The notes: generated by a model not told the origin, from the sequence alone. Positions 2,036-27,543 are shown, counted from the first letter of the stretch. The stretch is DNA of 32,404 nucleotides from an uncultured Gammaproteobacteria bacterium (GCA_902513495.1 CABXNH010000010.1:1-32404), one strand, 5' to 3'. Translations and numbers: made by a program.

Positions 2036-2260
2036 ATGACCACAAAAAACCCGCCAGATGACAACGAAAGCCTGATCCAGTTGATCCACGACCGTTACGA
2101 TGAGATGAGTCGGACCCATCAGCAGATTGCGCTTTACCTGACGCAGAACCCCAACGATGTCGCGGTCCACTCAGTCAATTCGATTAGGTCTTTAGGGGCA
2201 ACAATGAGCCTTGTTCAGGCTATATGTATATCCATTGGATACCATCAACAAGGAAATTAA
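2036..2260 (+). pseudogene. Truncated RpiR-family transcriptional regulator
   Basis: The first 50 or so residues match the start of RpiR-type regulators: LIQLIHDRYDEMSRTHQQIA and YLTQNPNDVAVHSVNSI form the first helices of the helix-turn-helix domain. After about residue 51 (near base 2187) the match and the high GC both stop, and the frame runs through unrelated AT-rich bases to a stop just before iolB. The recognition helix and the whole SIS sugar-phosphate domain (about 180-200 residues) are missing, so it cannot work as a normal repressor. In several Alphaproteobacteria an RpiR-type IolR precedes the inositol operon, so this is probably the remains of such a local regulator. If so, the operon downstream has lost its linked control gene. 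Confidence 0.75.
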
Positions 2261-2262
2261 AT

Positions 2263-3060
2263 ATGTCTCTTTTATCTCGTCCCAAATTAAGTTCAGATGG
2301 TTGTTATCAAAACATTACACCAAAATCAGCCAATTGGAAATATGTCGGATTTCAAGCACATGAACTGGCACCTCAACAAACTTTGAATTGGATTGATCCA
2401 GATAAAGAATCATGCTTGGTAATCTTATCTGGCAAGGCTGATATTAGAGTAGATAAGCAGACTTTTCATGGTCTTGGCGATAGAATGAGTGTATTTGAAG
2501 ATAAAAAACCGCATGCAGTATATGCACCCAATAACAGTCAAGTATCTATCAAAGCGATAACCAAACTCGAGCTGGCAATAGCAACTGCCCCTGGCTTTGG
2601 AAATTATCCTGCCAGACACATTAAGCCTGAAGAAATGACCAATGAGGTTCGAGGAGAAGGCAGCAACACAAGATCTATTTGCAACATATTGCCGGAACAA
2701 GACAAAGCTGATAGTTTGCTGGTTGTCGAAGTTAAAACTCCGGCTGGAAACTGGTCAAGTTATCCACCACACAAGCATGATTCAGATAACATTCCGGTTG
2801 AGACATATTTAGAAGAAACATATTATCATCGAATTAATCCACCTCAAGGGTTTGCCTTTCAGAGAGTCTATACCGATGATCTATCCATTGACGAGACGAT
2901 GGCAGTGGAAGACAAATGTGTTGTTCTTGTTCCAAAAGGATACCATCCGGTTGGCGTTCCTCATGGGTATGATTCATATTATTTGAATGTAATGGCAGGC
3001 CCTAAAAGACAATGGATTTTTAAAAACCACCCTGACCATGAATGGATGTTAGATAAATAA
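2263..3060 (+). CDS. iolB: 5-deoxy-glucuronate isomerase IolB (first copy)
   Basis: IolB turns 5-deoxy-D-glucuronate into 5-dehydro-2-deoxy-D-gluconate in myo-inositol breakdown; it is a cytosolic bicupin related to KduI. The 265-residue product fits the family length of about 270. The C-terminal cupin keeps the expected metal ligands: YPPHKHDSDN, then LEETYYHR, then KGYHPVGVPHGYD. The N-terminal cupin ends with VYAPNN. Start placed at 2263, with AAGGAA at 2250-2255 just ahead; an upstream in-frame ATG at 2224 has no ribosome site. The stop overlaps the next start as TAATG, so translation is coupled to iolC. A second, diverged IolB lies at 8780 in the same operon. Confidence 0.92.
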   Translation: MSLLSRPKLSSDGCYQNITPKSANWKYVGFQAHELAPQQTLNWIDPDKESCLVILSGKADIRVDKQTFHGLGDRMSVFEDKKPHAVYAPNNSQVSIKAITKLELAIATAPGFGNYPARHIKPEEMTNEVRGEGSNTRSICNILPEQDKADSLLVVEVKTPAGNWSSYPPHKHDSDNIPVETYLEETYYHRINPPQGFAFQRVYTDDLSIDETMAVEDKCVVLVPKGYHPVGVPHGYDSYYLNVMAGPKRQWIFKNHPDHEWMLDK

Positions 3061-4976
3061 TGAAATCAATTGATATTATTTGTTTAGGAAGAGCGGCTGT
3101 AGATTTTTATGGTCAACAGATTGGATCCACATTGGAAAATATGGGGAGTTTTGCCAAATATCTGGGAGGCTCTTCTGCAAATATTGCATATGGCTGCTCT
3201 AAGCTTGGCCTAAGTTCAGCAATGCTTACTAGGGTTGGAAACGAGCATATGGGTCGTTTTGTTCGTAATGAACTTGAAAGTGTTGGTGTAGATACATCTC
3301 ATGTAATTACTGATAGTGAACGATTAACTGGATTAGTTGTTTTAGGGATTCAAGATAAAGAAACCTTTCCTCTCATCTTTTATCGTAAAGACTGTGCTGA
3401 TATGGCAATCAGTGAAAAGGATTTTACAAAAGAGTTTATTGCGAGCAGTAAAGCATTACTCATTACAGGAACACATTTTTCCTCCGATAATACTTATCAG
3501 GCAAGTATGAAAGCAATAGAGTATGCAAAGTCCTCTGATACTCAGGTCATTGTTGACATTGATTATCGGCCAGTGCTTTGGGGGTTAACAGAGTTAGGTG
3601 ATGGAGAATCTCGATTTGTTGCAAGTGATGATGTAAGTCAGCATCTGCAAACAATTCTTCCACATTGTGATGTTGTTGTTGGGACTGAAGAAGAGATTCA
3701 CATTGCTGGAGGTAGTGAAGACACTATCACCGCATTGAGCAAGATACGACAGCTTAGTAATTCAATTATTGTTTTAAAGTTAGGTCCTTTAGGGTGCACA
3801 GTCATTACTAGTGATATTCCTAATAGCACAGATGATTTCAATGTAATCAAAGGTAATCAGGTTGACATTCTGAATGTATTGGGTGCTGGCGATGCTTTTA
3901 TGTCAGGTTTTTTAAGAGGTTATCTTAGGGGTGAGAGTCTTGAAAAAAGTGCCAACTATGCTAACGCATCTGGTGCATTAGTCGTATCTCGTCATGGCTG
4001 TGCTCCAGCAATCCCTGGTGAGCATGAGTTGTTATATTACTTAGAAAATGCAGTTGACATTCCCGACCCAAGTACAGATTTAACGCTAAACCATCTTCAT
4101 AGAGTCAGCTTCAGAAACAAAGAAGAGCCAGAAATTTTTGGTTTTGCTTTTGATCACCGAAAACAACTTAGTGATCTTGCAGTCAAGTATGGCGAAGATT
4201 TAAGTCAAATCATAAAACTTAAAAAACTATTTATTAGATCAATAATAAATACTATTGATAAATTTAAAATTCCTCAAAAAAGTATCGGAGTTTTAATTGA
4301 CGACACTTATGGTGAGGATGCACTCAATTCTATTGCTGAAAAATCATGGTGGATTGGAAGACCTGTTGAGCTTCCAAGTTCAAGACCCCTAAAGTTTGAA
4401 GGCGACCAGTCTATTGGTTCGAAGATACAGTCATGGCCACTATCACACGTTGTTAAGTGTTTATTTTTCTATCATCCAAATGATTCAGTCGAACTGAAAC
4501 TTAAGCAAGAGCAAAAAATAAAAGAGCTATATTTTGCATGTATTCAAAGCGGACACCAATTATTGCTAGAGGTAATTCCGCCTTCAAAATATGAAGAGGA
4601 TGAAGCGACAATACCAACAATCTTGAAAAGATTTTATGAAATAGAAATTAAGCCAGACTGGTGGAAGCTTCCAGCACTTAAAGAAAAGTCGTGGCAGCAA
4701 GTAAGTGATGTAATAAATACTCATGATTCGCATTGCCAGGGTGTATTATTATTGGGTCTTTCTGCTCCAATCGATATTGTTAGAGAGTCTTTTGCTGTAG
4801 CAGCAAAGTATCCTATCTGTAAAGGTTTTACAGTGGGCAGAACTATTTTTTATGATCCTGCAAAACAGTGGATGCAGCATAATATAAGTGATCAAGAGTT
4901 GGTTGATTCTGTAACTACTACTTACATTGAATTGATTCAATCTTGGAAAAAATATAGAGAGGGAATTCAAAAATGA
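3060..4976 (+). CDS. iolC: 5-dehydro-2-deoxygluconokinase fused to DUF2090 domain (IolC-DUF2090)
   Basis: The 638-residue protein has two parts. Residues 1 to about 335 are a PfkB/ribokinase-fold sugar kinase with GGSSANIAYG near residue 38 and the catalytic GAGDAF near residue 275; it phosphorylates 5-dehydro-2-deoxygluconate. Residues from about 345 to the end are a DUF2090 domain, beginning around GFAFDHRKQL and ending with GFTVGRTIFYDPAKQWM. Such fusions are common in Proteobacteria, and the DUF2090 part, which resembles TIM-barrel aldolases, has been proposed to supply the aldolase step where iolJ is missing. Here a separate class II aldolase is also present at 9619. The gene overlaps iolB upstream (TAATG) and the iolD stub downstream (ATGA). 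Confidence 0.93.
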   Translation: MKSIDIICLGRAAVDFYGQQIGSTLENMGSFAKYLGGSSANIAYGCSKLGLSSAMLTRVGNEHMGRFVRNELESVGVDTSHVITDSERLTGLVVLGIQDKETFPLIFYRKDCADMAISEKDFTKEFIASSKALLITGTHFSSDNTYQASMKAIEYAKSSDTQVIVDIDYRPVLWGLTELGDGESRFVASDDVSQHLQTILPHCDVVVGTEEEIHIAGGSEDTITALSKIRQLSNSIIVLKLGPLGCTVITSDIPNSTDDFNVIKGNQVDILNVLGAGDAFMSGFLRGYLRGESLEKSANYANASGALVVSRHGCAPAIPGEHELLYYLENAVDIPDPSTDLTLNHLHRVSFRNKEEPEIFGFAFDHRKQLSDLAVKYGEDLSQIIKLKKLFIRSIINTIDKFKIPQKSIGVLIDDTYGEDALNSIAEKSWWIGRPVELPSSRPLKFEGDQSIGSKIQSWPLSHVVKCLFFYHPNDSVELKLKQEQKIKELYFACIQSGHQLLLEVIPPSKYEEDEATIPTILKRFYEIEIKPDWWKLPALKEKSWQQVSDVINTHDSHCQGVLLLGLSAPIDIVRESFAVAAKYPICKGFTVGRTIFYDPAKQWMQHNISDQELVDSVTTTYIELIQSWKKYREGIQK

Positions 4977-5050
4977 AAACTATTAAACTAACAATGACAC
5001 AGGCTCGTATAAGAAATCTAAAACAAAGCAACCTTACTAGTCATGACTAG
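4973..5050 (+). pseudogene. iolD: iolD remnant: first 25 codons only
   Basis: Directly overlapping the iolC stop (ATGA), an ORF starts MKTIKLTMTQARIRNLKQ and stops after 25 residues at TAG 5048-5050. The first 18 or so residues match the characteristic beginning of IolD, the thiamine-diphosphate enzyme 3D-(3,5/4)-trihydroxycyclohexane-1,2-dione hydrolase, which normally reads M-K-T-I/V-R-L-T-M-A-Q-A-L and runs to about 610-640 residues. The rest of IolD is absent from the window, so a deletion has taken almost the whole gene. What remains is a leader-sized ORF lying between iolC and the next ORF, whose ATG (5043) overlaps its end by eight bases. The match is short, but its position exactly after iolC, where iolD usually lies, makes the call fairly safe. 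Confidence 0.75.
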
Positions 5051-5729
5051 AGAAACAGTTAAATCTAGACAACAAGTTTATTTCAGTGAATCTGATATAG
5101 ATTATGATGACTTAACTGAAATATGTTCTCAAAAAACACTTCAAGAGGATTATTCTCTTGCAGATTCAGTTTCAAATAATGTTGTCATTTATGATGCGAA
5201 TCACTTGAAGTCATTTATTGTTAATGAATTAAAAGAAAGAATATTAAAAACAGAGTTGCATCAGGTTTTAGAAAATGGACCAGGGGTTTTTGTTGTTCGA
5301 AATCTTTATGAAGGCGAAGTAATAGATCAGAGCAATACTATTTTTTTTAATCCTGCTGTATTTCATGCTGCTGGCGCAAACACTACTAATGACTTTCATA
5401 GGATTGGTAATCTTTTTCAAATTTCATCGCCCTTTGGCAAGCCTATTGAGAGCATAGATTATATTAAAATTATCAATCATATTTACCCATCCTTGCTAGA
5501 GCATTTAAATAAAAAAAACCTTTCAGAAAAGCTTATTGATAATGTTCTTATATGTGCAACTGATGGATACGCCTTTCCCACAAACTTAGATCACGATAAC
5601 AACTCTGATTCTAAGCTACAAGGAATGAGCATGTATGAACTTACAAAACAATCACTTCTAGACTCTCTGAGTCTAGAGAAATTTAGCTTAAAGCTCTCTG
5701 AGCTCCAGCATATGAGGCTTGCTAGTTAA
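5043..5729 (+). pseudogene. Internally deleted phytanoyl-CoA dioxygenase (PhyH)-like protein
   Basis: The 228-residue ORF reads as the two ends of a PhyH-type Fe(II)/2-oxoglutarate dioxygenase joined together. The N-terminal part (to about residue 97) includes ENGPGVFVVRNLYEGEVID. It runs straight into FFNPAVFHAAGANTT ... HRIGNLFQISSPFGKP, which in the full proteins (about 380 residues as I recall them) is the distal His/Arg region near the C-terminus, followed by AFPTNLDHD. The central barrel carrying the HxD iron ligands, about 150 residues, is missing. The join lies near base 5335. The product is therefore unlikely to be an active dioxygenase. It has no clear ribosome site and may be translated by coupling with the iolD stub. 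The alignment is from memory of the family; a genuinely short variant cannot be ruled out. Confidence 0.55.
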
Positions 5730-5757
5730 AGTATTATGAACAATTTGGAGAAGGTAA

Positions 5758-6663
5758 ATGAGTGTGAAAATTGGTGTTAGTCCGATATCGTGGACTAATG
5801 ATGATATGCCCGAGTTGGGTCGTGATACGACTGTGGAACATTGCCTAAAAGAAGGTAGTCAGGCTGGGTATAGAGGCTTTGAGTTGGGGGGTAAATGGCC
5901 AAGGGAAGTATCCGTACTTGAGCCTTTATTTAGCAAATATGATATGGATGTTGTTTCAAGTTGGTTTTGTGGTGGTTTGCTTAAAGACACTATCGAAGGT
6001 GAAATAAAAAGAATTACGCCTCATATGCAACTTCTGAAGGATTTGGGTACTGATGTAATAGTTTATTGTGAAATGGACTCATGTGTTCATGGAGATATTA
6101 GCTCGCCTCTTTCAAAACGACCAATGCTTGATGAAGATCAATGGAAGGAATGGACTGAAAAGCTTGACCAGTTAGCTAAATATACTTTGTCGCATGGAAT
6201 GAAGCTTGCTTATCATCATCATATGGGAACAGTCGTTCAAATTGAAGAAGAGGTGGATAAATTAATGGCCATGACCAGTAGTGACCTTGGCTTAGTATTT
6301 GATACAGGTCATTTTATTTATGCAGGTGCAGACCCTCTAAGTGTTTATAAAAAACATAGTGACAGAGTTCTTCATATTCATTGTAAAGATGTCAGAGCAG
6401 AAATATTGAATGATGTTTTAGAGTCAGACTCAAGTTTTTTAAATGCCGTCTTGAGTGGAGTATATACAGTTCCTGGAGATGGCGTTTTTGACTTTCCAGG
6501 CTTATTTAAAATGGTGAGTGAGAATGGTTTTAAAGGATGGATTGTTGTTGAAGCAGAACAAGATCCAGCCAAAGCGCATCCTTTAACGTACGTCACAATG
6601 GGCTATAACAATATTAAGAGTTATTGTGAAAAATTTGGAATTGAAATAGAGGAAAAAAGATGA
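5758..6663 (+). CDS. iolE: Inosose dehydratase IolE
   Basis: IolE dehydrates 2-keto-myo-inositol to trihydroxycyclohexane-1,2-dione, the substrate of IolD. The 301-residue protein is a TIM-barrel of the xylose-isomerase-like/AP-endonuclease-2 type. It has the IolE opening GVSPISWTNDDMPELG, then GYRGFELGGKWPRE, the metal-site regions LVFDTGHFIYAGADP and HIHCKDV, and VPGDGVFDFPGLF near the end. A good Shine-Dalgarno sequence (GGAGAAGG) precedes the ATG. The stop overlaps the next dehydrogenase start as ATGA. The reading frame is intact and the key acidic residues are visible, so the gene appears functional even though its immediate upstream neighbours are decayed. Confidence 0.93.
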   Translation: MSVKIGVSPISWTNDDMPELGRDTTVEHCLKEGSQAGYRGFELGGKWPREVSVLEPLFSKYDMDVVSSWFCGGLLKDTIEGEIKRITPHMQLLKDLGTDVIVYCEMDSCVHGDISSPLSKRPMLDEDQWKEWTEKLDQLAKYTLSHGMKLAYHHHMGTVVQIEEEVDKLMAMTSSDLGLVFDTGHFIYAGADPLSVYKKHSDRVLHIHCKDVRAEILNDVLESDSSFLNAVLSGVYTVPGDGVFDFPGLFKMVSENGFKGWIVVEAEQDPAKAHPLTYVTMGYNNIKSYCEKFGIEIEEKR

Positions 6664-7787
6664 AAACAATTGGAGTAGGAGTTATAGGCACAGCTTTTAT
6701 GGGGAAGGCACATTCAATTGCATATGCCGCTGCTGGAAGTGTTTTTGGTGATGGATTAAAGCCCAAGCTTGAAATGATTTGTGACTACAATCCTGAAAGG
6801 GCTGAGGTCAAGAAAAAGGAAATGGGATTTTCAAGATGCACAAGTTCCTGGGAGGAGTTAGTAAATGACCCTAAAGTTGAACTTATTTCTGTTTGTGTTC
6901 CGAATTCATTACATAAAGAGATTTCAGTGGCCGCATTAAAACTTGGAAAGCATGTTTGGTGTGAAAAGCCAATGTCAACCAATTTGTCTGACTCTGAAGC
7001 GATGTTTGCAGCTGCTCAAAAGGCCTCAAGCTCTCAAACAATATTGGGCTATAACTACACCCAAAACCCAGCAGTTCAAAGCGCAAAAAAACTTATTGAT
7101 GAAGGCGTAATTGGACGTGTAATTGGATTTTATGGAAGCTATGATGTAGATAATGAAGCCGATCCAGAGAGACCTCATTCTTGGCGAATGAGCCGGGAAG
7201 CTTCTGGAACTGGATCGAACGCTGATGTCATGTGCCATTTGGTAAGTATGGCTCACTACATGACTGGTAGCGAAATTACTCGATTAGTGGGCGACTATGA
7301 CACAGTGCATAGAGAGCGATCAGACCCCAAAAATCCAGACCAAACATTGATTGTTGATAACGATGATGTTTGCACAGCGATGGCACATTTTAAAAGTGGA
7401 ATTAAGGGAACTCTAAGAGTGAGTCGAGTTGCTTGGGGAAGAAAGTGCGGATTGCGCTGGGAGATACATGGGTCACAAGGGATGATCTGTCATGATCAGG
7501 AGCGGTTAAATGAAATTAAACTCTATACTCGAAGTGAAGATCCTAGACAGGAGGGCTTCAAGACCATATTGAGTGGTCCTGCTCAGCCGCCGTATGATGC
7601 CTTTTTACCGAATGCAGGACATAGTCTCGGGTATATCGATGTCAAGGTGTGTGAACTCAAACAACTTCTAGATGCAATCGAAACAGGCAAGGCAGTATGG
7701 CCGAATTTTTCTGATGGTGTGAAGATTGAGAAAGTAATGGATGCTATCGATAGGTCTGCACTCTCTGGTCAATGGCTTGATGTCTAG
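6660..7787 (+). CDS. Gfo/Idh/MocA-family inositol-type dehydrogenase (second copy)
   Basis: This intact 375-residue NAD(P)-dependent oxidoreductase has GVIGTAFMGKAHSIAY at its Rossmann start and CEKPMS near residue 101. The substrate-domain region HSWRMSREASGTGSNADVM ends in a helix that carries the usual catalytic His (MCHLV). Its place between iolE and a sugar kinase indicates that it supplies the inosose substrate by oxidising an inositol isomer, or a related cyclitol or sugar acid. It is a close-subfamily relative of the protein at 780 but with AT-rich codons like its neighbours. Start overlaps iolE as ATGA; its end overlaps the following kinase start by eight bases. Substrate (myo-, scyllo- or chiro-inositol) is not decidable from sequence. 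Confidence 0.9.
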   Translation: MKTIGVGVIGTAFMGKAHSIAYAAAGSVFGDGLKPKLEMICDYNPERAEVKKKEMGFSRCTSSWEELVNDPKVELISVCVPNSLHKEISVAALKLGKHVWCEKPMSTNLSDSEAMFAAAQKASSSQTILGYNYTQNPAVQSAKKLIDEGVIGRVIGFYGSYDVDNEADPERPHSWRMSREASGTGSNADVMCHLVSMAHYMTGSEITRLVGDYDTVHRERSDPKNPDQTLIVDNDDVCTAMAHFKSGIKGTLRVSRVAWGRKCGLRWEIHGSQGMICHDQERLNEIKLYTRSEDPRQEGFKTILSGPAQPPYDAFLPNAGHSLGYIDVKVCELKQLLDAIETGKAVWPNFSDGVKIEKVMDAIDRSALSGQWLDV

Positions 7788-8799
7788 TAATCAAATTCAA
7801 AATCTAAGTTATGACGGGACGCGGGACTGGAGCGCTCTTGTTGTTGGTAGAGCAGGTCTTGACCTATATCCTCAGCCATCAGGCGTGAAAACGATGAGTG
7901 CTGAAACGTTTGCGAGTGATGTAGGAGGGTCTGGTGCTAATATAGCGATTGCTATGAAACGATCTGGAGGCAGTATTTCGCTTGTTTCTGCCCTCTCTGA
8001 AGACCCAGTTGGATCCTTTGTGAAGAATCGTCTTTTAGAAGAAGGAATTGACTTAGGTTTGATGCAAACTACAAATGGAGATGAGAGAACAAGTCTCGCA
8101 ATTGCTGAAGAGCGACCTCTCGACTGTGAGGTTGTAATTTATCGAAATAACCCAGCAGATCTTCAAGTTAATTGCAACGATAAAATCGAGTTGGCAATTT
8201 CTAAAAGTAGTAATTTAGTGGTAACTGGAACTAGTTTGATTGAGCCTAAGTCTCGAGATCAGGTGCTAGCAATGATGTTACATGCTAAGAATCATGACTG
8301 TAAAGTTTGGTTGGATTTGGACTATAGGGCTTGGAATTGGCCTGATAAAAAAAGCACACGATCAGCATATCAACAAGCTACAAAGTTAGCACATGTTATC
8401 GTTGGCAATGAAGAGGAATTTAAGATTCTTCATGATGATTTAGCATCCCAAGCCAAGGAATGTTCATTAAATAATCAACTAATGATAGTGAAGCGAGGAG
8501 AAAATGGCTGCACTTTATTTTCAGGTGAATTACGAATAGATACGGGTATTTATAAACTAGAGGTTATGAAGCCTTATGGTTCTGGAGATGCTTTTCTTGG
8601 AAATTTAATAATGGACTATATGTCTTCTGGAGACTGGAAAAAAGCAATCGAGGTTGGAAGTGCTGCGGCTGCCATTGTGGTGTCAAAGCAAGGCTGCGCA
8701 AGTGCAATGCCAACTCATCAAGAAATAAAGTCGTTACAAGATAGTATGTCGATTGAACCAAAACACAGCGGAGTTAAAAATGCATATCCCTCAACATGA
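7780..8799 (+). CDS. PfkB-family carbohydrate kinase, second IolC-like enzyme without DUF2090
   Basis: The 339-residue protein is a ribokinase-fold kinase with VVGRAGLDLYPQPSG near the start, GGSGANIAIAMKRSGG near residue 50 and a catalytic loop YGSGDAFLGNL near residue 265. It shares order and motifs with the kinase half of IolC at 3060 (including LDLDYRAWNWP against DIDYRPVLWG), so the likely substrate is a 5-dehydro-2-deoxygluconate-type sugar acid. The loop reads GSGD where most family members have GAGD; the catalytic Asp is kept. Start placed at ATG 7780, which overlaps the upstream stop; an earlier in-frame ATG at 7741 lies deep in the previous gene. It overlaps the IolB-like gene downstream by 20 bases. 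Confidence 0.85.
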   Translation: MSSNQIQNLSYDGTRDWSALVVGRAGLDLYPQPSGVKTMSAETFASDVGGSGANIAIAMKRSGGSISLVSALSEDPVGSFVKNRLLEEGIDLGLMQTTNGDERTSLAIAEERPLDCEVVIYRNNPADLQVNCNDKIELAISKSSNLVVTGTSLIEPKSRDQVLAMMLHAKNHDCKVWLDLDYRAWNWPDKKSTRSAYQQATKLAHVIVGNEEEFKILHDDLASQAKECSLNNQLMIVKRGENGCTLFSGELRIDTGIYKLEVMKPYGSGDAFLGNLIMDYMSSGDWKKAIEVGSAAAAIVVSKQGCASAMPTHQEIKSLQDSMSIEPKHSGVKNAYPST

Positions 8800-9619
8800 C
8801 AATAATAATCAGCCTATTGTAGATTGTAATAATGAGGTAGTACCCTTATGCTACTTTAACATCGTAAAGCTTTCGGCTGGAGAGGAGTTTAGCTACCAAC
8901 TAGATGAATACGAAACATGTATCGTTCCTGCAACTGGAACCATAGATGTTGAGGTTGATGGCCAAAGCTTTAAAGGCGTTGGCAAGCGAAACTATATTTG
9001 GGAGAGTGACCCTGAAGGGGTTTATGTCCCTGTGAACTCAAAAGCTAGATTGATTTGCCAAGATGGAAAGACTGAGGTATTTATCTCTGGCGCCAAACAC
9101 AATGAAACGTATGAAGCATTTGTTATTAGGCAAAAAGATATTGATAAAGTTCAATATGGCTCTGATGATACTAAGACTCATCGAAAAATTAAGCATATCT
9201 TAGGCAAGGATCCAGCTGGAAAAGTTGGTAAGTTATTAGTAAGCGAATTATTTACCGTTGGAGAAGGAGGCTGGTCAGGATTTCCGCCTCATAAGCATGA
9301 AACAGATATGCTTCCAGAGGAGAGTAAACACAATGAAGTTTACAATTTCAGATTCAATCCTGCTAATGGCTTTGGTGCTCAATTTTTAACTCCAGATGGA
9401 GAGGATTTTGGCCCTGTATATCATGTACGTGACGGCTCCACATTTATCTTTGATAAGGGTTATCATCCTTGTGTCGCAGCACCAGGCTTTGAAATGTATT
9501 ACTTTACTATATTGGCTGGGGAGACTCAAAGGCCACTGCATATGAATTATCAAAAAGACTATGCATATCAGCTAGAAACTATTCCTGGCATGCAAGATAT
9601 GCTTAATAAATTTAAATAA
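8780..9619 (+). CDS. IolB-like bicupin isomerase (second copy)
   Basis: This is a 279-residue bicupin of the KduI/IolB family, clearly diverged from IolB at 2263. It keeps the C-terminal cupin metal-site pattern: FPPHKHETDMLPE, then HNEVYNFRFNPANG, then DKGYHPCVAAPGFEMYY. The first cupin has CIVPATGTIDVEVDGQ and VYVPVNS. Start placed at 8780, with GCGGAG seven to twelve bases before it; an in-frame ATG at 8753 is less likely because it lies further inside the kinase gene. The gene ends TAATG with the aldolase, so kinase, isomerase and aldolase are translationally coupled. It probably isomerises 5-deoxyglucuronate or a stereoisomer of it; which one is inference. Confidence 0.87.
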   Translation: MHIPQHDNNNQPIVDCNNEVVPLCYFNIVKLSAGEEFSYQLDEYETCIVPATGTIDVEVDGQSFKGVGKRNYIWESDPEGVYVPVNSKARLICQDGKTEVFISGAKHNETYEAFVIRQKDIDKVQYGSDDTKTHRKIKHILGKDPAGKVGKLLVSELFTVGEGGWSGFPPHKHETDMLPEESKHNEVYNFRFNPANGFGAQFLTPDGEDFGPVYHVRDGSTFIFDKGYHPCVAAPGFEMYYFTILAGETQRPLHMNYQKDYAYQLETIPGMQDMLNKFK

Positions 9620-10449
9620 TGATTTCAAACCTTAAAGATATTCTTCTGCCAGCAAGTAAACAAGGTTATGCGGTCGCATGCTTTAATGTTTTTGGCTTTG
9701 AGGACTCAAAGGCAGTTTTAGAAGCTGCTGAGGCTAGAAATGCGTCTGTTATTCTTTCAATCAATCTTGATATGCGTGAGTTTATGAGTATGGAACAAAT
9801 TATTGGTATGCTAAGACCGATGGCAGAGAGCTCTAAAGCGCCGGTTTGCCTGCATCTTGATCACACATACAAGGTTGATGTGGTGAAACAGGCAATAGAT
9901 ACTGGATTTACTTCCGTCATGTTTGATGGTTCTCAATTACCAATTTCTGAAAATATTGCTCACATCCGAGATGTTGTATCTTATGCACATCCTAAAGGAG
10001 TTTCGGTTGAGGCTGAAGTAGGCTCTGTACCCTATGCAACAGGAAGGGATCATATCAAGTCAGCACTAACTGAAGTTTCTGATGCTTTAGCTATGGAGAA
10101 ACAGGGAGGTCCTGATGCACTTGCAATTTCAATTGGTAATGTTCATCGTCTAGAGAATGGATCTGTAGAAATTAATTTAGAGCGCTTTAAAGAGCTTGAA
10201 GAGGTATTAACTATTCCATTAGTTATTCATGGCGCAAGTGGCTTAGAAGATAAGGATATCAAAATGTTATCGAAGCGACATGTCACTAAATTTAATGTTG
10301 GAACGGTTTTGAGAAAGCGCTTTGGAAGTTCTTTAAGAGCCACACTTGAGTCTAACCCGGAGCTATTTGACAGAATAACAATCATGCAAAAAGTGATTCC
10401 GGATCTAAAAGAGACAGCAACAAAGATTATTGATCTTCTTGGCCAGTAA
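9619..10449 (+). CDS. iolJ: Class II aldolase, IolJ-like (6-phospho-5-dehydro-2-deoxygluconate aldolase)
   Basis: The 276-residue protein belongs to the zinc-dependent class II fructose-bisphosphate aldolase family (FbaA/GatY/IolJ). Visible motifs are YAVACFNVFGFED near residue 14, LHLDHT with a catalytic Asp and a Zn-binding His, SVMFDGSQLP, VEAEVGSV, SIGNVHR with a Zn-binding His, VIHGASGL with the last Zn-binding His, and KFNVGT for phosphate binding. In the inositol pathway this enzyme splits the phosphorylated acid into dihydroxyacetone phosphate and malonate semialdehyde. Its coupling to a kinase and an IolB-like isomerase supports IolJ over a glycolytic or tagatose aldolase. It is the last gene of the operon. 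A weak hairpin covers its stop codon. Confidence 0.85.
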   Translation: MISNLKDILLPASKQGYAVACFNVFGFEDSKAVLEAAEARNASVILSINLDMREFMSMEQIIGMLRPMAESSKAPVCLHLDHTYKVDVVKQAIDTGFTSVMFDGSQLPISENIAHIRDVVSYAHPKGVSVEAEVGSVPYATGRDHIKSALTEVSDALAMEKQGGPDALAISIGNVHRLENGSVEINLERFKELEEVLTIPLVIHGASGLEDKDIKMLSKRHVTKFNVGTVLRKRFGSSLRATLESNPELFDRITIMQKVIPDLKETATKIIDLLGQ

Positions 10450-18784: not shown

Positions 18785-19558
18785 TTAAAGCGCCTCACCG
18801 AAGGTACTATTTTGTGAGTGAATGTACTCGATGTCACTCGTATGAACGTATGATGTTCGAATCTCAATTGTCTCATTGTGATAGGTTTGGCCAATCCGAT
18901 CTATCTTAAGAATAGGTGAGCCTAAATCGATATCAAGTAGCTTAGATATTTTTTCGTTAGAAGAGATTGCCTTTAATTTCTCTGAGCAGTTAGTGATAAA
19001 GATATTAAATTTATTTTGATAGAGGTTGTAAATTGTGTTCGCTCTATTTTTAAAAATCTCTTCATTAAGTCCATGAAATTTATCCTGAGAGATAATAATT
19101 TTGTCAATGATATAGAATTTCTTGTTAAGACCTAGTTTGTTATATATTTTATGAATAGAGCTTCCAGCAGGAATATTCAAAGATTCTGCTTCAGATTTAG
19201 ATGCTTTCTTGGTCTCAAAGGAAATAAATTCGACGGTTGGACTTTCTTGTTTTTCAGTTCCATTTAAAGCAAAGTGAAAATACTCAAAAAGAAAACTATT
19301 GCTGTCGTGCTGAAAGACAAAAGTTCCTAAGCCTTGCTTGCGAATTAGAAAGCCTTCTTTTTCTAAGACACCTACCGCTTTTCTGATTGTCCCAATAGAG
19401 ACCTGAAAGAGTTCTACGAGTGTCTTTTCATTCGGAATGAGCTGTCCAGGCCTGAGCTCATCTCTGTAAAGGGAATTGAATAATTCATTACGAATTTGCA
19501 ACCAAAGAGGAGTTTTACTGTCTCTGTCAATTTCAAATTTCCGATCAGTAATACTCAT
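18785..19558 (-). CDS. GntR-family regulator with UTRA ligand domain (HutC type), last gene of the hps/suy operon
   Basis: The 257-residue protein has an N-terminal winged helix (PLWLQIRNELFNSLYRDELR, then IPNEKTLVELFQVSIGTIRK and LEKEGFLIRKQGLGTFV) and a UTRA domain from about residue 95 to the end, the HutC/FarR subfamily. Such proteins are usually repressors released by a pathway metabolite. It is the promoter-distal gene of the suyA-suyB-hpsN-SDR-ADH operon, 17 bases after the alcohol dehydrogenase, so it probably controls this operon, and perhaps one or both TRAP operons, through feedback. In Cupriavidus pinatubonensis a regulator HpsR accompanies the same pathway; whether it is homologous to this protein I cannot say. 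Confidence 0.87.
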   Translation of the reverse strand: MSITDRKFEIDRDSKTPLWLQIRNELFNSLYRDELRPGQLIPNEKTLVELFQVSIGTIRKAVGVLEKEGFLIRKQGLGTFVFQHDSNSFLFEYFHFALNGTEKQESPTVEFISFETKKASKSEAESLNIPAGSSIHKIYNKLGLNKKFYIIDKIIISQDKFHGLNEEIFKNRANTIYNLYQNKFNIFITNCSEKLKAISSNEKISKLLDIDLGSPILKIDRIGQTYHNETIEIRTSYVHTSDIEYIHSQNSTFGEAL

Positions 19559-19575
19559 ACTTGATGATTACATTA

Positions 19576-20586
19576 TTAAAAAGAAGGTTTTAAGATAACC
19601 TTGGCCGAGGCCATTGTACCATTGTGTAAACTTTGAAATGCTAAATTAGTGTCTGATAAAGGCATCTCTTCAATCCAAGATAAATCTCCAAAGTCACCGT
19701 TTTCAATCGACTTCAACGCAGACCTAAAATCTTCCATGTTGTAGGTGTAACATCCAACAAGCTTTATTTCTTGGAGGGTAATTTTTCGAATGTCAATATT
19801 GCTACTCCAGCTAAGCAGTCCAACATTAACCACTACGCCTCCTGCCCTGACAGAAGAAATGGATAGTGCATTTGTTTTCTCACTCCCGACACAATCAATT
19901 ACGACATCAAAAATGTCTTCCTTGACTGACTGAGTAATTGGGTTAATAGGATTAACGCCAACATGTTCTCTAACGCAAGAATGACGAGCCTCATTCGTTT
20001 CAAGGACAGTCATTTTGACGCCATGAGACTTCAGTAAAAGTGCAGCCAATAGACCAATAGCACCCGCGCCAACCACAAGTACATTGCACTCATTGATCGG
20101 TTTAAAGGAGCTCTCTATGGCAAGGTTAACGGCATGGACCACAGTGGCTGCAGGTTCAGTGAGCGCTACATGATTTGAGTTCATAGTATTGGGCGCATGA
20201 ACGAGGCACTGATTCGGTATTGTCATGTATTGAGCAAAAGCACCTTGCCTGCTCATCCCTATCATATCTCTATCACTACATAAGTTGTCTCTACCTTGGA
20301 GGCAGTATTCACACTTCCCGCATGTAATAAGTGGATTGCCGGTTACCTTTTGACCCTTATGGTCTCCCTCAACAATCTCACCACAAAACTCATGTCCCAG
20401 AATTAGTCCAGGATTTCTTCTTGGGTCTTTTCCATGAAAGGCATGCATATCGGAGCCACAAATACCTACCGACTCAATACGAAGTAGTACATCATCATCA
20501 CGGTCAATTTGGGTAGAGTGATAATCATTTATAAAAGTCATCTCATTGGGTGCGGTATAAACCACTGCTTCCATTTTATCAATCAT
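19576..20586 (-). CDS. Zinc-dependent alcohol dehydrogenase (MDR), probable DHPS 2-dehydrogenase
   Basis: This 336-residue medium-chain dehydrogenase has the catalytic zinc site GICGSDMHAFHG and LGHEFCGEIVEGD, the four-cysteine structural zinc loop CGKCEYCLQGRDNLC and the NAD site VLVVGAGAIGLLAALLL. It resembles sorbitol/threonine dehydrogenases and oxidises a secondary alcohol. In the DHPS operon its likely job is one half of the enantiomer exchange by two 2-dehydrogenases, as described for HpsO and HpsP in Cupriavidus pinatubonensis, with the SDR at 20583 as the other half. That role is inferred from position only. Start overlaps the SDR stop as ATGA, so translation is coupled. Confidence 0.82.
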   Translation of the reverse strand: MIDKMEAVVYTAPNEMTFINDYHSTQIDRDDDVLLRIESVGICGSDMHAFHGKDPRRNPGLILGHEFCGEIVEGDHKGQKVTGNPLITCGKCEYCLQGRDNLCSDRDMIGMSRQGAFAQYMTIPNQCLVHAPNTMNSNHVALTEPAATVVHAVNLAIESSFKPINECNVLVVGAGAIGLLAALLLKSHGVKMTVLETNEARHSCVREHVGVNPINPITQSVKEDIFDVVIDCVGSEKTNALSISSVRAGGVVVNVGLLSWSSNIDIRKITLQEIKLVGCYTYNMEDFRSALKSIENGDFGDLSWIEEMPLSDTNLAFQSLHNGTMASAKVILKPSF

Positions 20587-21344
20587 GCTGCTGAAAACCC
20601 TCCATCAAGAAATATAGTTTGACCAGTGACATACGAGTTAGCATTGCTACATAAAAAGACGCTAATTCCAAATATATCCTTTTCTTCTCCATTACGACCC
20701 ATCATCGTTTTATCAGCTAATGTTTTTAATTTACCCGGATCTTGGAACAATGACTCTGTTAAGTTAGTTCTAAAAAATCCAGGAGCAATGGCATTCACTA
20801 GTACGCCATCTTTAGAGTAAGCTTGAGCTAAAGCGCGTGTCAATTGCATGATTCCACCTTTACTTGCACCATATGGAATGCTGTTATCAAAAGCCCTAAG
20901 AGATTGAAGTGAGGCGATATTGATAATTCTTCCCCATTTATTTTTCTTCATTGAGTCTGCAACGAGTTGACTTAAGTGAAAGGGGGCTGTTAAGTTAATA
21001 TCGATTGTTTTTTGCCATTCATCAAGCGTAAGATCTTCAGCTGACGTTCTTAGGTTGATGCCAGCCGCATTAACTAAAATGTCAATTTGATTAGACTCCT
21101 CATGGATAAGAGTGACAATGTTTTCAAGGGCTTCACTTGAAGTGACATCCACTTGAATGAATCGTCCCTCAGAGCCCTGATCATTGAGCTCTTTGAGCGT
21201 TTCATCTGCATTATCTCGGCTACTAGCAATCCAGACAAATGCGCCTGCTTTTGCAAGCGCAAGTGCCATCATTTTTCCTAATCCGCTAGTACCACCAGTT
21301 ATCAGAGCAACTTTATTCTCAAGAGAAAAGTCTGATAAGCCCAT
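20583..21344 (-). CDS. SDR-family dehydrogenase, probable DHPS 2-dehydrogenase partner
   Basis: The 253-residue classical SDR has ALITGGTSGLGKMMALALA at the N-terminus, NAAGINLRTSAED with the NAG-type motif, the catalytic Ser in NIASLQSLRA, the YxxxK pair as YGASKGG, and a C-terminus VTGQTIFLDGGFSA. Sequence style is that of gluconate/2-deoxygluconate 3-dehydrogenases. Its gene lies three bases after hpsN and is coupled to the zinc alcohol dehydrogenase. Together they could invert DHPS through the 2-keto sulfonate, so that both enantiomers reach HpsN. The general function is safe; the substrate is inferred from context. Confidence 0.84.
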   Translation of the reverse strand: MGLSDFSLENKVALITGGTSGLGKMMALALAKAGAFVWIASSRDNADETLKELNDQGSEGRFIQVDVTSSEALENIVTLIHEESNQIDILVNAAGINLRTSAEDLTLDEWQKTIDINLTAPFHLSQLVADSMKKNKWGRIINIASLQSLRAFDNSIPYGASKGGIMQLTRALAQAYSKDGVLVNAIAPGFFRTNLTESLFQDPGKLKTLADKTMMGRNGEEKDIFGISVFLCSNANSYVTGQTIFLDGGFSAA

Positions 21345-21347
21345 GGT

Positions 21348-22661
<1,314 letters not shown>

Positions 22662-22680
22662 TTATCCAATTAAATTTAAT

Positions 22681-23850
22681 TTATGCGCTTTCATACAGAC
22701 GCGTTAATACAAACTCTTGATGACCCAGTATTTCTGCAGCAGTCATTCTTCCATTTGAGGTGTGTATAAGAGACTCAAGAAGCATATCGCCAGCTTGATC
22801 CATGTTGATATCACGCTTTAGTAAAGCAGTTACATCAACATCAACATGCTCTGACATTGTTCTGACTGTCCTCGGGTTTGCACAAATTTTGATAACCGGC
22901 AAGATTGGATTACCAATAATGTTTCCTTGGCCAGTAGGGAATAAGTGAGCAACATATCCAGAGGCTGCGCACAAGGTAACCATTTCTGCGGCAGCAGAAG
23001 AAGAATCCATAAACCACAAGCCTTTACTTGTCGGCATTTCAGCTTTATCTAGGACGCCATCAACGACACATTTTTTACCAATTTTTTGAATATTTCCAAG
23101 CGCCTTCTCTTCGATCGTTGTTAGGCCACCCTCAATATTACCTTTGGTCGGTTGTGAATCAGATAAGTCATCTGTTTTAAAACGCTCAATCATGTCCTGA
23201 TAGCGATTAAACATAAACATAAATTGATCAGCAACAGCGTCATTTGCACATCTTGCTTTAACCAAATGCTCGCCACCCGTAATCTCTGATGTTTCACCAA
23301 AAAGTAGGGTGCTTTCTTTTTCATAAAGTTTGTCAAATGCGTTTCCAACTGTAGGGTTTGATCCAAATCCTGAAGTAGTATCTGACTCACCACATTTCGT
23401 TGACACCCATATTTCACTGATATCACATGGCTCTCTTTGTAAGCCAGAAGCATAATGAACCATGTCGTATGCAGCTTTAGAGGCATCAGCAATTGTTTGG
23501 ATATCACCTTTCTTTTCAATCGAGAAGCCTTGAACTGGTTTACCAGTTGCAGCAATTCCATCAACAATTTTTTGAGTCCAGCCTGGCTCAATTCCTATAA
23601 CAACAACGGCAGCAACATTTGGGTTTGCACCTGTTCCAATCATCGTTCTAAAATGGAGGTCTAAATCCTCACCAAATTGCAGCCTACCATAAGGGTGAGG
23701 AAGTGCTATCGTTCCTTTAATATTATTACTAACAGCTTCACATGCAGCATTTGAAATATCGTCAACAGGGAGGATTACTACATAGTTGCGAATTCCAACT
23801 CTATTATTGTCACGTCTATAGCCGTAGATTTTTTGATCTAAATTTATCAT
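22681..23850 (-). CDS. suyB: (2R)-sulfolactate sulfo-lyase, large subunit SuyB
   Basis: SuyAB splits (R)-sulfolactate into pyruvate and sulfite. The 389-residue large subunit is a UxaA/altronate-dehydratase-family protein with [20 protein letters not shown] at the start, [39 protein letters not shown] and a Cys-bearing region [20 protein letters not shown] near residue 171. It is called SuyB because of its small SuyA partner and the hpsN neighbour; altronate dehydratase would be expected beside hexuronate genes. Start set at ATG 23850, which forms TAATG with the suyA stop and has AGAGGTGG just ahead; a GTG at 23856 is the only earlier option. Confidence 0.9.
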
Positions 23851-24131
23851 TACCACCTCTTTGTTTTAACGTTATGAACATGTAGATGGTCACCAACTGC
23901 AATCTTTGAAACTGTTCTGCCAATATCTACACCATATTTGATGACTGTATCATCTTCATTAAGATCCTTAATTGCAAGTTTATGACCAATAGGAATATCT
24001 TGATTGATCTTAATGTCGATTAGGACATCTTGATCCATTATCCATCCCGTTAGGGTGTCATTTGCTTTGAGACCTTCAACTGTAACAACGCCGACGGAAT
24101 CGTCTTCGTCATGAACTATAAATTGAATCAT
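23850..24131 (-). CDS. suyA: (2R)-sulfolactate sulfo-lyase, small subunit SuyA
   Basis: The 93-residue protein is a SAF-domain subunit, the N-terminal part of altronate dehydratases that is a separate chain in SuyAB. It shows [37 protein letters not shown] and the typical ending [10 protein letters not shown]. It is the first gene of the minus-strand DHPS operon, with a strong ribosome site (AGGAGT ahead of the ATG) and a promoter candidate at 24200-24229. The TAATG overlap with suyB keeps the two subunits at equal amounts. Confidence 0.92.
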
Positions 24132-24537: not shown

Positions 24538-25611
24538 ATGATAAGAAACAAACTTATACTCATGGTAATGGCAGCAACGCTTGTTTTTACAGGCTCTAGC
24601 TCAATTGCTGCGGAGGAAAAAGTTATCAAGTGGAAACTGGCGATGACTTGGCCAGCTGGCTTACCGCCTTTCGCATGGACTGTTGAACGTTTTGCTTCAA
24701 ATGTAGAGGAAATGAGTGGTGGTCGAATGACAATTCGTGTTGATGATAAGAATAAACACAAGGCTGCTCTGGGCATACTTGATATGGTCGAAGCTGGTCA
24801 ATACGAGATGGGTCATTCAGCATCTTATTACTGGAAAGGTAAAGACATTAATACTATGCCATTTACAACCATGCCTTTCGGCATGACAACTTCTGAACAA
24901 GATGCTTGGTACTACTATGGTGGTGGTGAAGCACTTGCAAAAGAAGTATTTGACAAACATGGGGTTATTCAATTTCAAGGTGGCAGTACTGGTAATCAGA
25001 TGGGCGGATGGTTTCGTAAAGAAATCAATTCTGTTGATGACCTGAAAGGTCTAAAGATGCGAATTCCTGGGTTTGCTGGAGAAGTTATGGCTGAACTTGG
25101 TGTTGCGGTAACTAACCTGCCTGCGGGTGAGTTATATACTGCGCTAGAACGAGGAACTATTGATGCGCTAGAGTGGGTTGGTCCAGGTATGGATATTAAT
25201 ATGGGCTTTCATAAGGTTGCACCCTATTATTACACTGGCTGGCATGAGCCTGCAACTGACTTGCAGTTCTTAATTAACCAAGACGCATGGAATGAATTAC
25301 CAGCTGACTTACAGGCTATTGTTGAGGTGGCTATTGTTGACTCCAAGGCACGTATGTATTGGGAAAACTACGCCATGAGCGCGGAAGCTTGGTCTAAGAT
25401 GGGAGTAGATTACCCTAACATTAAAGTTAAGTCATTCCCGCCAGAAGTGATTGCTGAGATGAAGGCTGTAAATGCTCGACTCATAGCAGAAACTTCAGCT
25501 AAGGATCCACTGTTCAAAAAAATCATTGATTCTCAAACAGAATTTATGTCAAAGGCTAGAGAGTGGACAAAGATGTCAGATTATTTGTATCTGCAAGACA
25601 ATATCGAATAA
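24538..25611 (+). CDS. dctP: TRAP transporter substrate-binding protein DctP (second system)
   Basis: The 357-residue periplasmic receptor has a Sec signal peptide with a cut near residue 25 (after SSIAA). It shows the TakP-type pattern: KWKLAMTWPAGLPPFAWTV, GHSASYYWKGKD, GGWFRKEINSVDDLKGLKMR followed by IPGFAGEVMAELG with the conserved Arg, and ALERGTIDALEWVGPG. It differs a good deal from the first DctP, so the ligands are probably different. It is divergent from suyAB, in the position where a DHPS/sulfolactate transporter would be expected; in Cupriavidus pinatubonensis a TRAP transporter (HpsKLM) accompanies the same genes. That makes DHPS the best guess for its ligand. A strong terminator follows it. 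Confidence 0.92.
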   Translation: MIRNKLILMVMAATLVFTGSSSIAAEEKVIKWKLAMTWPAGLPPFAWTVERFASNVEEMSGGRMTIRVDDKNKHKAALGILDMVEAGQYEMGHSASYYWKGKDINTMPFTTMPFGMTTSEQDAWYYYGGGEALAKEVFDKHGVIQFQGGSTGNQMGGWFRKEINSVDDLKGLKMRIPGFAGEVMAELGVAVTNLPAGELYTALERGTIDALEWVGPGMDINMGFHKVAPYYYTGWHEPATDLQFLINQDAWNELPADLQAIVEVAIVDSKARMYWENYAMSAEAWSKMGVDYPNIKVKSFPPEVIAEMKAVNARLIAETSAKDPLFKKIIDSQTEFMSKAREWTKMSDYLYLQDNIE

Positions 25612-25633
25612 TTTAAATCTTATGTGTTTTATA

Positions 25634-25662
25634 ATGCCCGCAGTAAAAGCGGGCATTTTTTT
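25634..25662 (+). terminator. Strong rho-independent terminator between dctP and dctQM (second system)
   Basis: ATGCCCGC (25634-25641) pairs perfectly with GCGGGCAT (25649-25656) around a seven-base loop, and seven T residues follow. It lies 22 bases after the dctP stop and 19 bases before dctQ, so permease expression depends on read-through. It has the same place as the terminator in the first TRAP operon, with unrelated sequence. Confidence 0.9.
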
Positions 25663-25681
25663 ATTTTAAAAGGTTTTTTCT

Positions 25682-26197
25682 ATGCTTTGGATTGAATTAT
25701 TTTGCGATAAATGCGCTAAATATATAGGTGTGATTATTTCATTCCTACTTATTTTGATGATGATCAACGTCGCTTTTGATGCACTAAATCGCTACATAAT
25801 GAACTCTAACTCTGTTGCCCTACAGGAGATGGAGTGGCATTTGTTCTCTGTGATTATTTTACTGGGCCTTTCCTATACTCTCAGCGAAGAGGCGCATGTC
25901 CGGGTTGATATTTTATATGCAGGTTTTAGTAAAAAAAAGAAGGCAATTGTCAATATGATTGGCGTTATTCTTTTTGTTCTCCCTCTTAGTTTATTGATTG
26001 CATATGGTTCACTCGGCTTTGTTGAAAAATCATTTGTGTTTATGGAACAGAGTGGTGATCCAGGCGGCCTTCCCTATCGATATATTATTAAAGCATTAAT
26101 ACCAACATCATTTGTTATCTTGATTATTATGTCAATAGGTTATTTTGCTCGCAACTATAACCTTCTAAAGAGGCTTAATTCAGGGTCTGAGTCATGA
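25682..26197 (+). CDS. dctQ: TRAP transporter small permease DctQ (second system)
   Basis: The 171-residue protein has four predicted membrane segments (near YIGVIISFLLILMMINVAF, HLFSVIILLGLSYTLS, IVNMIGVILFVLPLSLLIAY and IPTSFVILIIMSIGYF). The family region LSYTLSEEAHVRVDILYAGF follows the second segment. The start is ten bases after AAAAGG. The stop overlaps the dctM start as ATGA at 26194. It lacks the acidic N-terminal extension seen in the first DctQ. Confidence 0.9.
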   Translation: MLWIELFCDKCAKYIGVIISFLLILMMINVAFDALNRYIMNSNSVALQEMEWHLFSVIILLGLSYTLSEEAHVRVDILYAGFSKKKKAIVNMIGVILFVLPLSLLIAYGSLGFVEKSFVFMEQSGDPGGLPYRYIIKALIPTSFVILIIMSIGYFARNYNLLKRLNSGSES

Positions 26198-27543
26198 TAG
26201 GCTTAATAATGTTTTTTACTGGACTAGCGATGCTGTTTATAGGCTTCCCAGTTGCATTTACTTTTGGCGCCGTTTCGGTATTTTTTGGTATGGCTGCTGG
26301 AATTATCGAGGCCTTTGGTGATGGTGAGTTGTTAGTTGATGGAATAGATAACGGTTTAATGATGTTTGCAATGATGCCTCATCGAATTTGGAGCATTATG
26401 ACCAATACTATATTAATGGCAATCCCTTTATTTATTCTCATGGGCCTAATTCTCCAAAAAACAAAATTAGCTGAACGATTATTAGAATCAATGGGTTTTT
26501 TGTTTGGAAAAATACGAGGCGGACTAGCTATCAGTACGGTACTCGTTGGATCTTTATTGGCAGCCTCAACAGGTGTAGTTGGTGCGAGTGTAGTAGCCAT
26601 GGGAGTCATTTCCTTGCCAGTAATGCTGAAATATAACTATTCAAAAAATTTATCTACTGGAACAATTTGCGCAGCAGGCACTTTAGGCCAAATTATTCCG
26701 CCATCCATTGTTCTTATTATTTTAGGTGATGTATTTAATGTTCCTGTAGGCGATTTATTTAAAGCTGCACTTTTTCCTGGGTTAGTTCTAGTTGCAGCCT
26801 ATGTTGTTTACATTCTAATTATTTGTTATATAAAGCCTGACATAGCGCCTTCAATTAATCTCAAAGCTCAGGAAGGAGAGAGTAAAAAGAGCCAAGTTTG
26901 GTCAGCTTTATTTTCAATTATTCCTCCACTATCCCTCATTATTATTGTTCTTGGCTCTATATTTGCAGGAATTGCAACTCCTACTGAATCATCTGCTATT
27001 GGCTGTGTTGGTGCAGTAATACTTTCACTCTTATACAGAAAGTTTTCCTTTTCAATGTTAATGGAGTCAGCTAAAGAGACGGTCAAAATAACCGCAATGG
27101 TTTTTGGTATTTTGATTGGTGCTACCGCATTTTCTATGGTTTTTACCTATACCGGTGGAGATATGTTGATAGAGGAGTTTATGCTCAGCTTGCCTGGAGA
27201 TAAATGGGGTTTTGTTATCATGGCAATGTTAGCCATCATGGTCTTAGGGTTTTTTATAGACTTTGTAGAGATTTCTTATATTATCGTTCCTATCCTGGTT
27301 CCAATTTCTGAGGTTTTAGGTATTAACCCAATCTGGTTTGCAATTCTTATCGCAATGAATTTACAGACTTCGTTTTTAACTCCGCCTTTTGGGTTTAGCT
27401 TGTTCTATTTAAAAGGAGTTGCACCAAGTAGTATTAAAACGACAGACATTTATAAAGGTGTTGTTCCATTTATCATGATACAAATTCTTGTGCTAGCTTC
27501 AATCGTCTTTTATCCAGAGTGGTATGGAACTTTTGAATACTAA
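26194..27543 (+). CDS. dctM: TRAP transporter large permease DctM (second system)
   Basis: The 449-residue polytopic protein carries DctM motifs: FIGFPVAFTFGAVSVFFGM, AIPLFILMGLILQKTKLAERL, STGVVGASVVAMGVISLPVM, AGTLGQIIPPSIVLIILGD, and GIATPTESSAIGCVGAV. About twelve membrane segments are visible. Together with DctP and DctQ it forms a sodium-coupled importer. It overlaps dctQ, and a hotdog-fold gene starts ten bases after its stop, perhaps on the same transcript. Confidence 0.92.
   Translation: MIGLIMFFTGLAMLFIGFPVAFTFGAVSVFFGMAAGIIEAFGDGELLVDGIDNGLMMFAMMPHRIWSIMTNTILMAIPLFILMGLILQKTKLAERLLESMGFLFGKIRGGLAISTVLVGSLLAASTGVVGASVVAMGVISLPVMLKYNYSKNLSTGTICAAGTLGQIIPPSIVLIILGDVFNVPVGDLFKAALFPGLVLVAAYVVYILIICYIKPDIAPSINLKAQEGESKKSQVWSALFSIIPPLSLIIIVLGSIFAGIATPTESSAIGCVGAVILSLLYRKFSFSMLMESAKETVKITAMVFGILIGATAFSMVFTYTGGDMLIEEFMLSLPGDKWGFVIMAMLAIMVLGFFIDFVEISYIIVPILVPISEVLGINPIWFAILIAMNLQTSFLTPPFGFSLFYLKGVAPSSIKTTDIYKGVVPFIMIQILVLASIVFYPEWYGTFEY

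Follow-up and report, generated by a model that had tools for sequence, protein, structure and literature searches.

Several described systems resemble the locus analysed here. In the proteobacterial pathway IolG-IolE-IolD-IolB-IolC/DUF2090 (Price et al. 2022, PMC9007349), DUF2090 has been proposed from mutant fitness data as the 2-deoxy-5-keto-gluconate-6-phosphate aldolase, with a Lys/Glu pair as its proposed catalytic residues. The Bacillus-type iol operon, with IolC and IolJ, resembles the second gene set described below in having a separate kinase and a class II aldolase. Further points of reference are LgdA, a scyllo-inositol dehydrogenase of Paracoccus laeviglucosivorans whose gene also lies within a putative inositol cluster (PMC5969746), and the megaplasmid cluster of Ruegeria sp. 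TM1040 (LacI / Gfo-TIM-Gfo / iolD-iolC-IolB-aldolase-iolG, with an ATP-binding cassette (ABC) transporter). Our subject is an inositol-type operon with two isomerase-kinase-aldolase sets, found in a 32,404-nucleotide stretch of DNA (the whole of which we call the window; GCA_902513495.1 CABXNH010000010.1:1-32404) from an uncultured Gammaproteobacteria bacterium. The host is a marine SUP05-group bacterium, and the window is part of contig C10 in its 1.2 Mb, 70%-complete draft genome.

The reading that we favour, at roughly even odds (about 0.5), is that of a composite operon, in which the canonical proteobacterial inositol set is joined to a second lower-pathway cassette for scyllo-inositol or a related cyclitol. 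The canonical set would comprise IolB1, IolE and IolC-DUF2090, to which complete relatives add IolD, IolG, RpiR and an ABC transporter of the inositol type, and the second cassette would comprise gfoB, kin2, IolB2 and ald2, at times with a PhyH dioxygenase.

Domain content and phylogeny of the two sets

The genes of the operon lie on one strand and mostly overlap:

2036..2260, plus strand: rpiR remnant, a Paracoccus-like RpiR helix-turn-helix start that continues in the same frame into the final ~25 codons of the SUP05 rpiR, with the SIS domain gone
2263..3060, plus strand: iolB1, canonical 5-deoxyglucuronate isomerase (TIGR04378, 347 bits, cut-off 205)
3060..4976, plus strand: iolC-DUF2090 fusion, kinase with class I-type aldolase domain (NF047869, 839 bits, cut-off 600)
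4973..5042, plus strand: iolD remnant with both ends retained (deletion of ~1786 bp, junction 5003-5005)
5043..5729, plus strand: phyH remnant, an open reading frame (ORF) of 228 aa (in-frame internal deletion of 492 bp, junction 5339-5345)
5758..6663, plus strand: iolE, inosose dehydratase (TIGR04379, 400 bits, cut-off 290)
6660..7787, plus strand: gfoB, Gfo/Idh protein, predicted LgdA-type (scyllo-)inositol dehydrogenase (homology to 5ya8 and key residues)
~7780..8799, plus strand: kin2, unfused second IolC-like PfkB kinase (IolC model TIGR04382, 276 bits, cut-off 300; GxGD retained)
~8780..9619, plus strand: iolB2, second bicupin of the IolB/KduI family (TIGR04378, 161 bits, cut-off 205; PF04962, 249 bits)
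9619..10449, plus strand: ald2, class II aldolase (PF01116)

The first-pass annotation, made from the window sequence, had placed IolB and an IolC-DUF2090 fusion at one end of the operon (here 2263-4976), had assigned the opposite end (here 7780-10449) to a second kinase, a second IolB-like bicupin and an aldolase of class II, and had set iolE and a dehydrogenase in between. Profile scores above curated cut-offs bear out the first of these assignments and family matches the second, and the middle genes are as it described. IolB1, IolE and IolC-DUF2090 of the window, together with IolD and IolG of its relatives, all exceed the curated cut-offs and match the proteobacterial pathway (PMC9007349), to which the SUP05 operon adds a kinase, an IolB-type isomerase and a class II aldolase; the window itself lacks iolD and iolG. 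By its TIGR04378 score IolB1 qualifies as a canonical IolB, and the DUF2090 part of the fusion retains the Lys/Glu pair (K466/E504) with the published 38-residue spacing.

IolB2, which falls below the cut-off and into a clade of its own, is assigned only to the IolB/KduI family. The window kin2 also stays below its cut-off, while most of the alphaproteobacterial kin2 orthologues tested pass it (304-333 bits); the GxGD motif is conserved in the kinases, kin2 included. According to the alignment, both bicupins share H183/H180, H185/H182, E198/E195 and H241/H238 (IolB1/IolB2), which we take to be metal ligands. Around this site the two groups differ consistently (Y180>F177, Y195>R192, Y201>N198, H202>F199). 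In ald2 the presumed metal ligands H82, H176 and H204 are conserved across the group.

To place both sets we used quick trees, with SH-aLRT (Shimodaira-Hasegawa-like approximate likelihood ratio test) as the only support measure and with some long branches. They separate IolB2 from IolB1 (SH-aLRT 98), kin2 from the fused IolC (100) and a cassette-linked IolD2 clade from canonical IolD (100). When characterised-type references are included, IolB1 joins Salmonella and Priestia IolB (51-53% identity), whereas IolB2 and ald2 fall outside the groups of the Priestia proteins (33% identity each; kin2 is 31% identical to its Priestia counterpart). The earlier designation of the aldolase as class II IolJ-type is thus correct as to class, but ald2 forms a clade separate from the Bacillus-type iol aldolases (SH-aLRT 100). 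The sets are therefore two distinct isomerase-kinase-aldolase sets, as had been supposed, each in separate deep clades, and the second kinase and cupin stand apart from ordinary IolC and IolB. A recent tandem duplication of iolB and iolC, which the presence of the same families within one operon might suggest, is refuted by this deep separation and by identities of 28% (IolC-kin2) and 31% (IolB1-IolB2), and we give it practically no weight.

A scan of genome contigs returned at least 561 IolB2 relatives; neighbourhood counts were made on the best 80 loci, mostly from Proteobacteria. The genes kin2, iolB2 and ald2 are contiguous in 71 of these 80, and their surroundings include gfoB (59 loci), an iolE-like gene (60), iolD (51), phyH (14) and the IolC-DUF2090 fusion (11). 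Many carriers are marine, and IolB2 occurs in 35 of 100 genomes sampled from the family to which Ruegeria sp. Ofav3-42 belongs. Judged by sequence comparison, the second set is an old and mobile gene cassette that is widespread in the sea. The TM1040 cluster contains an orthologous cassette (IolB2 58% identical) and differs in having its own IolD2 and IolE-like TIM barrel and in lacking a DUF2090 fusion in that locus. We also considered Ilyobacter as a possible simple counterpart of the second set and rejected it; the aldolase falls in the ald2 group, but the IolB has diverged too far to be of use. A third clade of IolB-like proteins has a member on plasmid pRL10 of Rhizobium johnstonii (L138, 9989-10822; 40% identity with IolB2), clustered with ABC transporter genes that carry an oligopeptide-type annotation, a glycosyl hydrolase and genes of the mandelate racemase family.

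Complete operons in relatives and the incomplete copy in the window

The host family consists mostly of small genomes (1.5-1.7 Mb for carriers of both sets). IolB2 is present in 10 of 29 genomes of the genus, in most of them ~8.7 kb from IolB1 within the same operon, while some drafts have it split or partly broken. The full order in relatives is ABC transporter (three genes)-iolG-rpiR-iolB1-iolC-DUF2090-iolD-phyH-iolE-gfoB-kin2-iolB2-ald2, followed in some by iolA, so that IolD and IolE are each encoded once in these genomes, and IolB-type and IolC-type proteins twice each. The search for the same gene order that the first-pass annotation had called for thus finds IolB2 beside the canonical genes elsewhere in the genus, and the dual layout with one common iolD recurs also on a Marivivens plasmid (JLT3646). 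The possibility that the dual layout is an assembly artefact was rejected, as it recurs in genomes of the genus, including G007, where the operon is intact on a single contig of 1,714,148 bp. In genome G023 (L033, 13511-15838) iolB1 is shortened and iolC-DUF2090 is in pieces, with the second set intact; either the sequence contains errors or the canonical branch has decayed independently there.

The window copy, in turn, has three junctions within 3.2 kb (2186, 5004 and 5340), and gene interiors are gone at each. Compared with relatives, in which rpiR encodes 273 aa, iolD 618 aa (TIGR04377, 932 bits, cut-off 715) and phyH a full-length PF05721 protein, iolD of the window is reduced to its two ends, with 1.8 kb gone. 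The phyH deletion lies between two copies of TATTTTT and takes out H179 and D181 (full-length numbering), two of the three Fe ligands of the Fe(II)/2-oxoglutarate site. The transporter, iolG and most of rpiR are lost at the junction to Paracoccus-like DNA, which falls inside rpiR. None of these losses had been noticed in the first-pass annotation, and its proposal that each branch is complete in the window does not hold, as the ring-opening iolD is deleted here. Family profile searches found no iolD above the cut-off in the window operon or in the rest of the 70%-complete genome, and in that same genome no iolG above it (best match 118 bits, cut-off 355); an MMSDH gene of the iolA type is present on contig C18. 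As assembled, the window copy cannot run from inositol unless iolD is located in the missing ~30% of the genome.

Upstream of 2186 the GC content is 47-58%, compared with ~38% elsewhere, and this segment has no match in the other 28 genomes of the genus. It contains fragments of a short-chain dehydrogenase/reductase (SDR) and an aldehyde dehydrogenase, a Gfo/Idh gene and the rpiR start, again with gene interiors missing; its order resembles an inositol cluster of Paracoccus alcaliphilus, and the Gfo/Idh protein is 72-77% identical to plasmid genes of Paracoccus, Rhizobium and Shinella. The segment is either a recent transfer or part of a chimeric contig. Downstream, between 2186 and 11500, ancestry is mosaic (2186-2600 is 97% identical to G006, 3060-3600 98% to G014, and 9619-10449 is closest to G007 at 87%), which suggests recombination between lineages or chimeric assembly.

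All seven intact genes of the window have dN/dS (nonsynonymous to synonymous substitution rate) ratios of 0.02-0.15 relative to relatives, i.e. they are under strong purifying selection, so that any gene loss is a recent event, unless the junctions are artefactual. That the window copy is a relic or a contig artefact, i.e. an operon decayed or misassembled and not working in this organism, is a possibility to which we grant somewhat less than an even chance, and it is compatible with the other readings of the operon. The clustered junctions, the GC-rich foreign 5' 2.2 kb, the mosaic ancestry and the incomplete draft speak for it, while the intact, selectively constrained remaining genes speak against it, the preserved reading frame across the phyH and rpiR junctions is in keeping with real deletions, and the intact operons of relatives show that the dual layout itself is no artefact.

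Elsewhere in the window, positions 18785-24131 hold a conserved group comprising a GntR regulator, an alcohol dehydrogenase, an SDR, a HisD-like dehydrogenase (presumably HpsN-like) and a small/large UxaA-type pair that resembles the sulfolactate lyase SuyAB, possibly for dihydroxypropanesulfonate degradation. This group adjoins a TRAP (tripartite ATP-independent periplasmic) transporter. A second TRAP transporter set (24538-27543), absent at that position in G007 and G012, lies between the suyAB-like genes and the ORF at 27554-28027.

Candidate substrates of the second branch

The clue to the substrate comes from gfoB, whose closest solved homolog is LgdA (5ya8; E 5e-98, 44% identity). In LgdA, K106, D191 and H195 are catalytic and Y135, Y163, E165, R178 and H318 touch the substrate; its Michaelis constant (Km) is lower for scyllo-inositol than for myo-inositol, and it probably converts the latter into L-epi-2-inosose (PMC5969746). 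The window gfoB retains seven of these eight residues (K-D-H, Y135, Y163, R178 and H318), with E165 replaced by V in all 13 gamma-type copies; most alphaproteobacterial copies instead have Y163H. IolG does not share the LgdA residue pattern, which supports the assignment of gfoB as a putative inositol-type dehydrogenase other than IolG. A product of the epi series would explain the need for separate late enzymes. In complete relatives, scyllo-inositol or a related cyclitol would be oxidised by gfoB and the product dehydrated and ring-opened by the common IolE and IolD; the deoxy-hexuronate would then be isomerised by IolB2, phosphorylated by kin2 and cleaved by ald2 into dihydroxyacetone phosphate and a semialdehyde, the latter to be oxidised by IolA.

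In the B. subtilis pathway the inositol stereoisomers normally converge on scyllo-inosose ahead of iolE, and therefore a split by isomer, as proposed in the first-pass annotation, does not of itself require a second isomerase, kinase and aldolase; these would be called for only if the inosose were a different one. The genomes (isolates) reached via cassette loci differ in gene content: 18 of the 26 also have DUF2090, and 8 do not. Among the latter, three (G100, G104 and G105) have just a single gene of each kind (IolB-type, IolC-type, IolD and IolE-like), so that the cassette, when accompanied by an IolD2 and an IolE-like protein of its own, can make up a complete pathway. In others, e.g. G007, Marivivens JLT3646 and Oceanospirillaceae (L056, L058), the cassette is combined with canonical IolD. 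The combination is most telling in Ruegeria Ofav3-42, where canonical IolB1, IolE and IolD occur beside kin2, IolB2 and ald2, and where we found in the genome no IolC-type kinase other than kin2 and no DUF2090. There kin2 and ald2 probably serve the canonical route too, and this genome provides the best argument for overlapping chemistry of both sets. Three further points likewise weigh against a branch dedicated to scyllo-inositol or its relatives: PGA1_c07220, an IolJ-like class II aldolase from Phaeobacter inhibens, has been implicated in the use of myo-inositol, for which it is needed (PMC9007349), LgdA accepts myo-inositol and L-glucose as well (PMC5969746), and the window copy has no iolD. 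If PGA1_c07220 is the ald2 ortholog, the cassette supports growth on myo-inositol and the isomer split is weakened.

The second set might then be isofunctional, i.e. an evolutionary alternative, with separate kinase and class II aldolase, for the same myo-inositol-derived 5-deoxyglucuronate, retained alongside the fused IolC-DUF2090 for dosage, for regulation or by chance. Besides Ofav3-42 and PGA1_c07220, this agrees with genomes that have only this set and IolG (L125 and L127; the TM1040 locus) and with the Photobacterium order iolE-iolD-gfo-kin2-iolB2-ald2. We consider it doubtful, though a real contender, since both sets are under purifying selection in genomes of limited size, occur together in most of the isolates and differ systematically in residues near the IolB metal site, and since the cassette carries its own LgdA-type dehydrogenase. 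Alternatively, the substrate could be a modified inositol (an O-methyl or C-methyl inositol or another algal cyclitol), from which PhyH removes, or on which it hydroxylates, a substituent before the altered acid enters the IolB2 series. The full-length PhyH in the operon of relatives and near some of the cassettes, the loss of the polar contact E165 and the many marine carriers are consistent with this; however, most cassettes have no PhyH nearby, that of Ruegeria sits in a canonical operon, the protein has only remote solved relatives, and a literature search on bacterial methyl-inositol demethylation returned nothing relevant, so that we find this explanation unlikely.

The evidence leans towards a second branch for scyllo-inositol or a related cyclitol. 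More tentatively, and short of what we would call probable, IolE2-IolD2-kin2-IolB2-ald2 with the LgdA-type dehydrogenase may form a separate, so far undescribed cyclitol pathway that acts on a different inosose (e.g. from scyllo-, epi- or methylated inositols) and is widespread in marine Proteobacteria, and whose lower half the SUP05 bacteria plug into a canonical operon, sharing IolD and IolE. In a literature search neither the dual operon nor inositol use by SUP05 turned up, which is weak evidence given the limited collection of papers. Since both sets carry the same inositol terms in annotation pipelines, such annotation conceals what could be a distinct cyclitol route of abundant marine bacteria. 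Cultured carriers of the cassette exist in Ruegeria, Labrenzia and Marivivens, and probably in Ca. T. singularis PS1, which makes direct testing possible; Labrenzia sp. THAF82 carries both sets and Labrenzia sp. R4_2 the second alone. The composite operon would show how small marine genomes add a mobile cassette for the lower pathway to a canonical operon.

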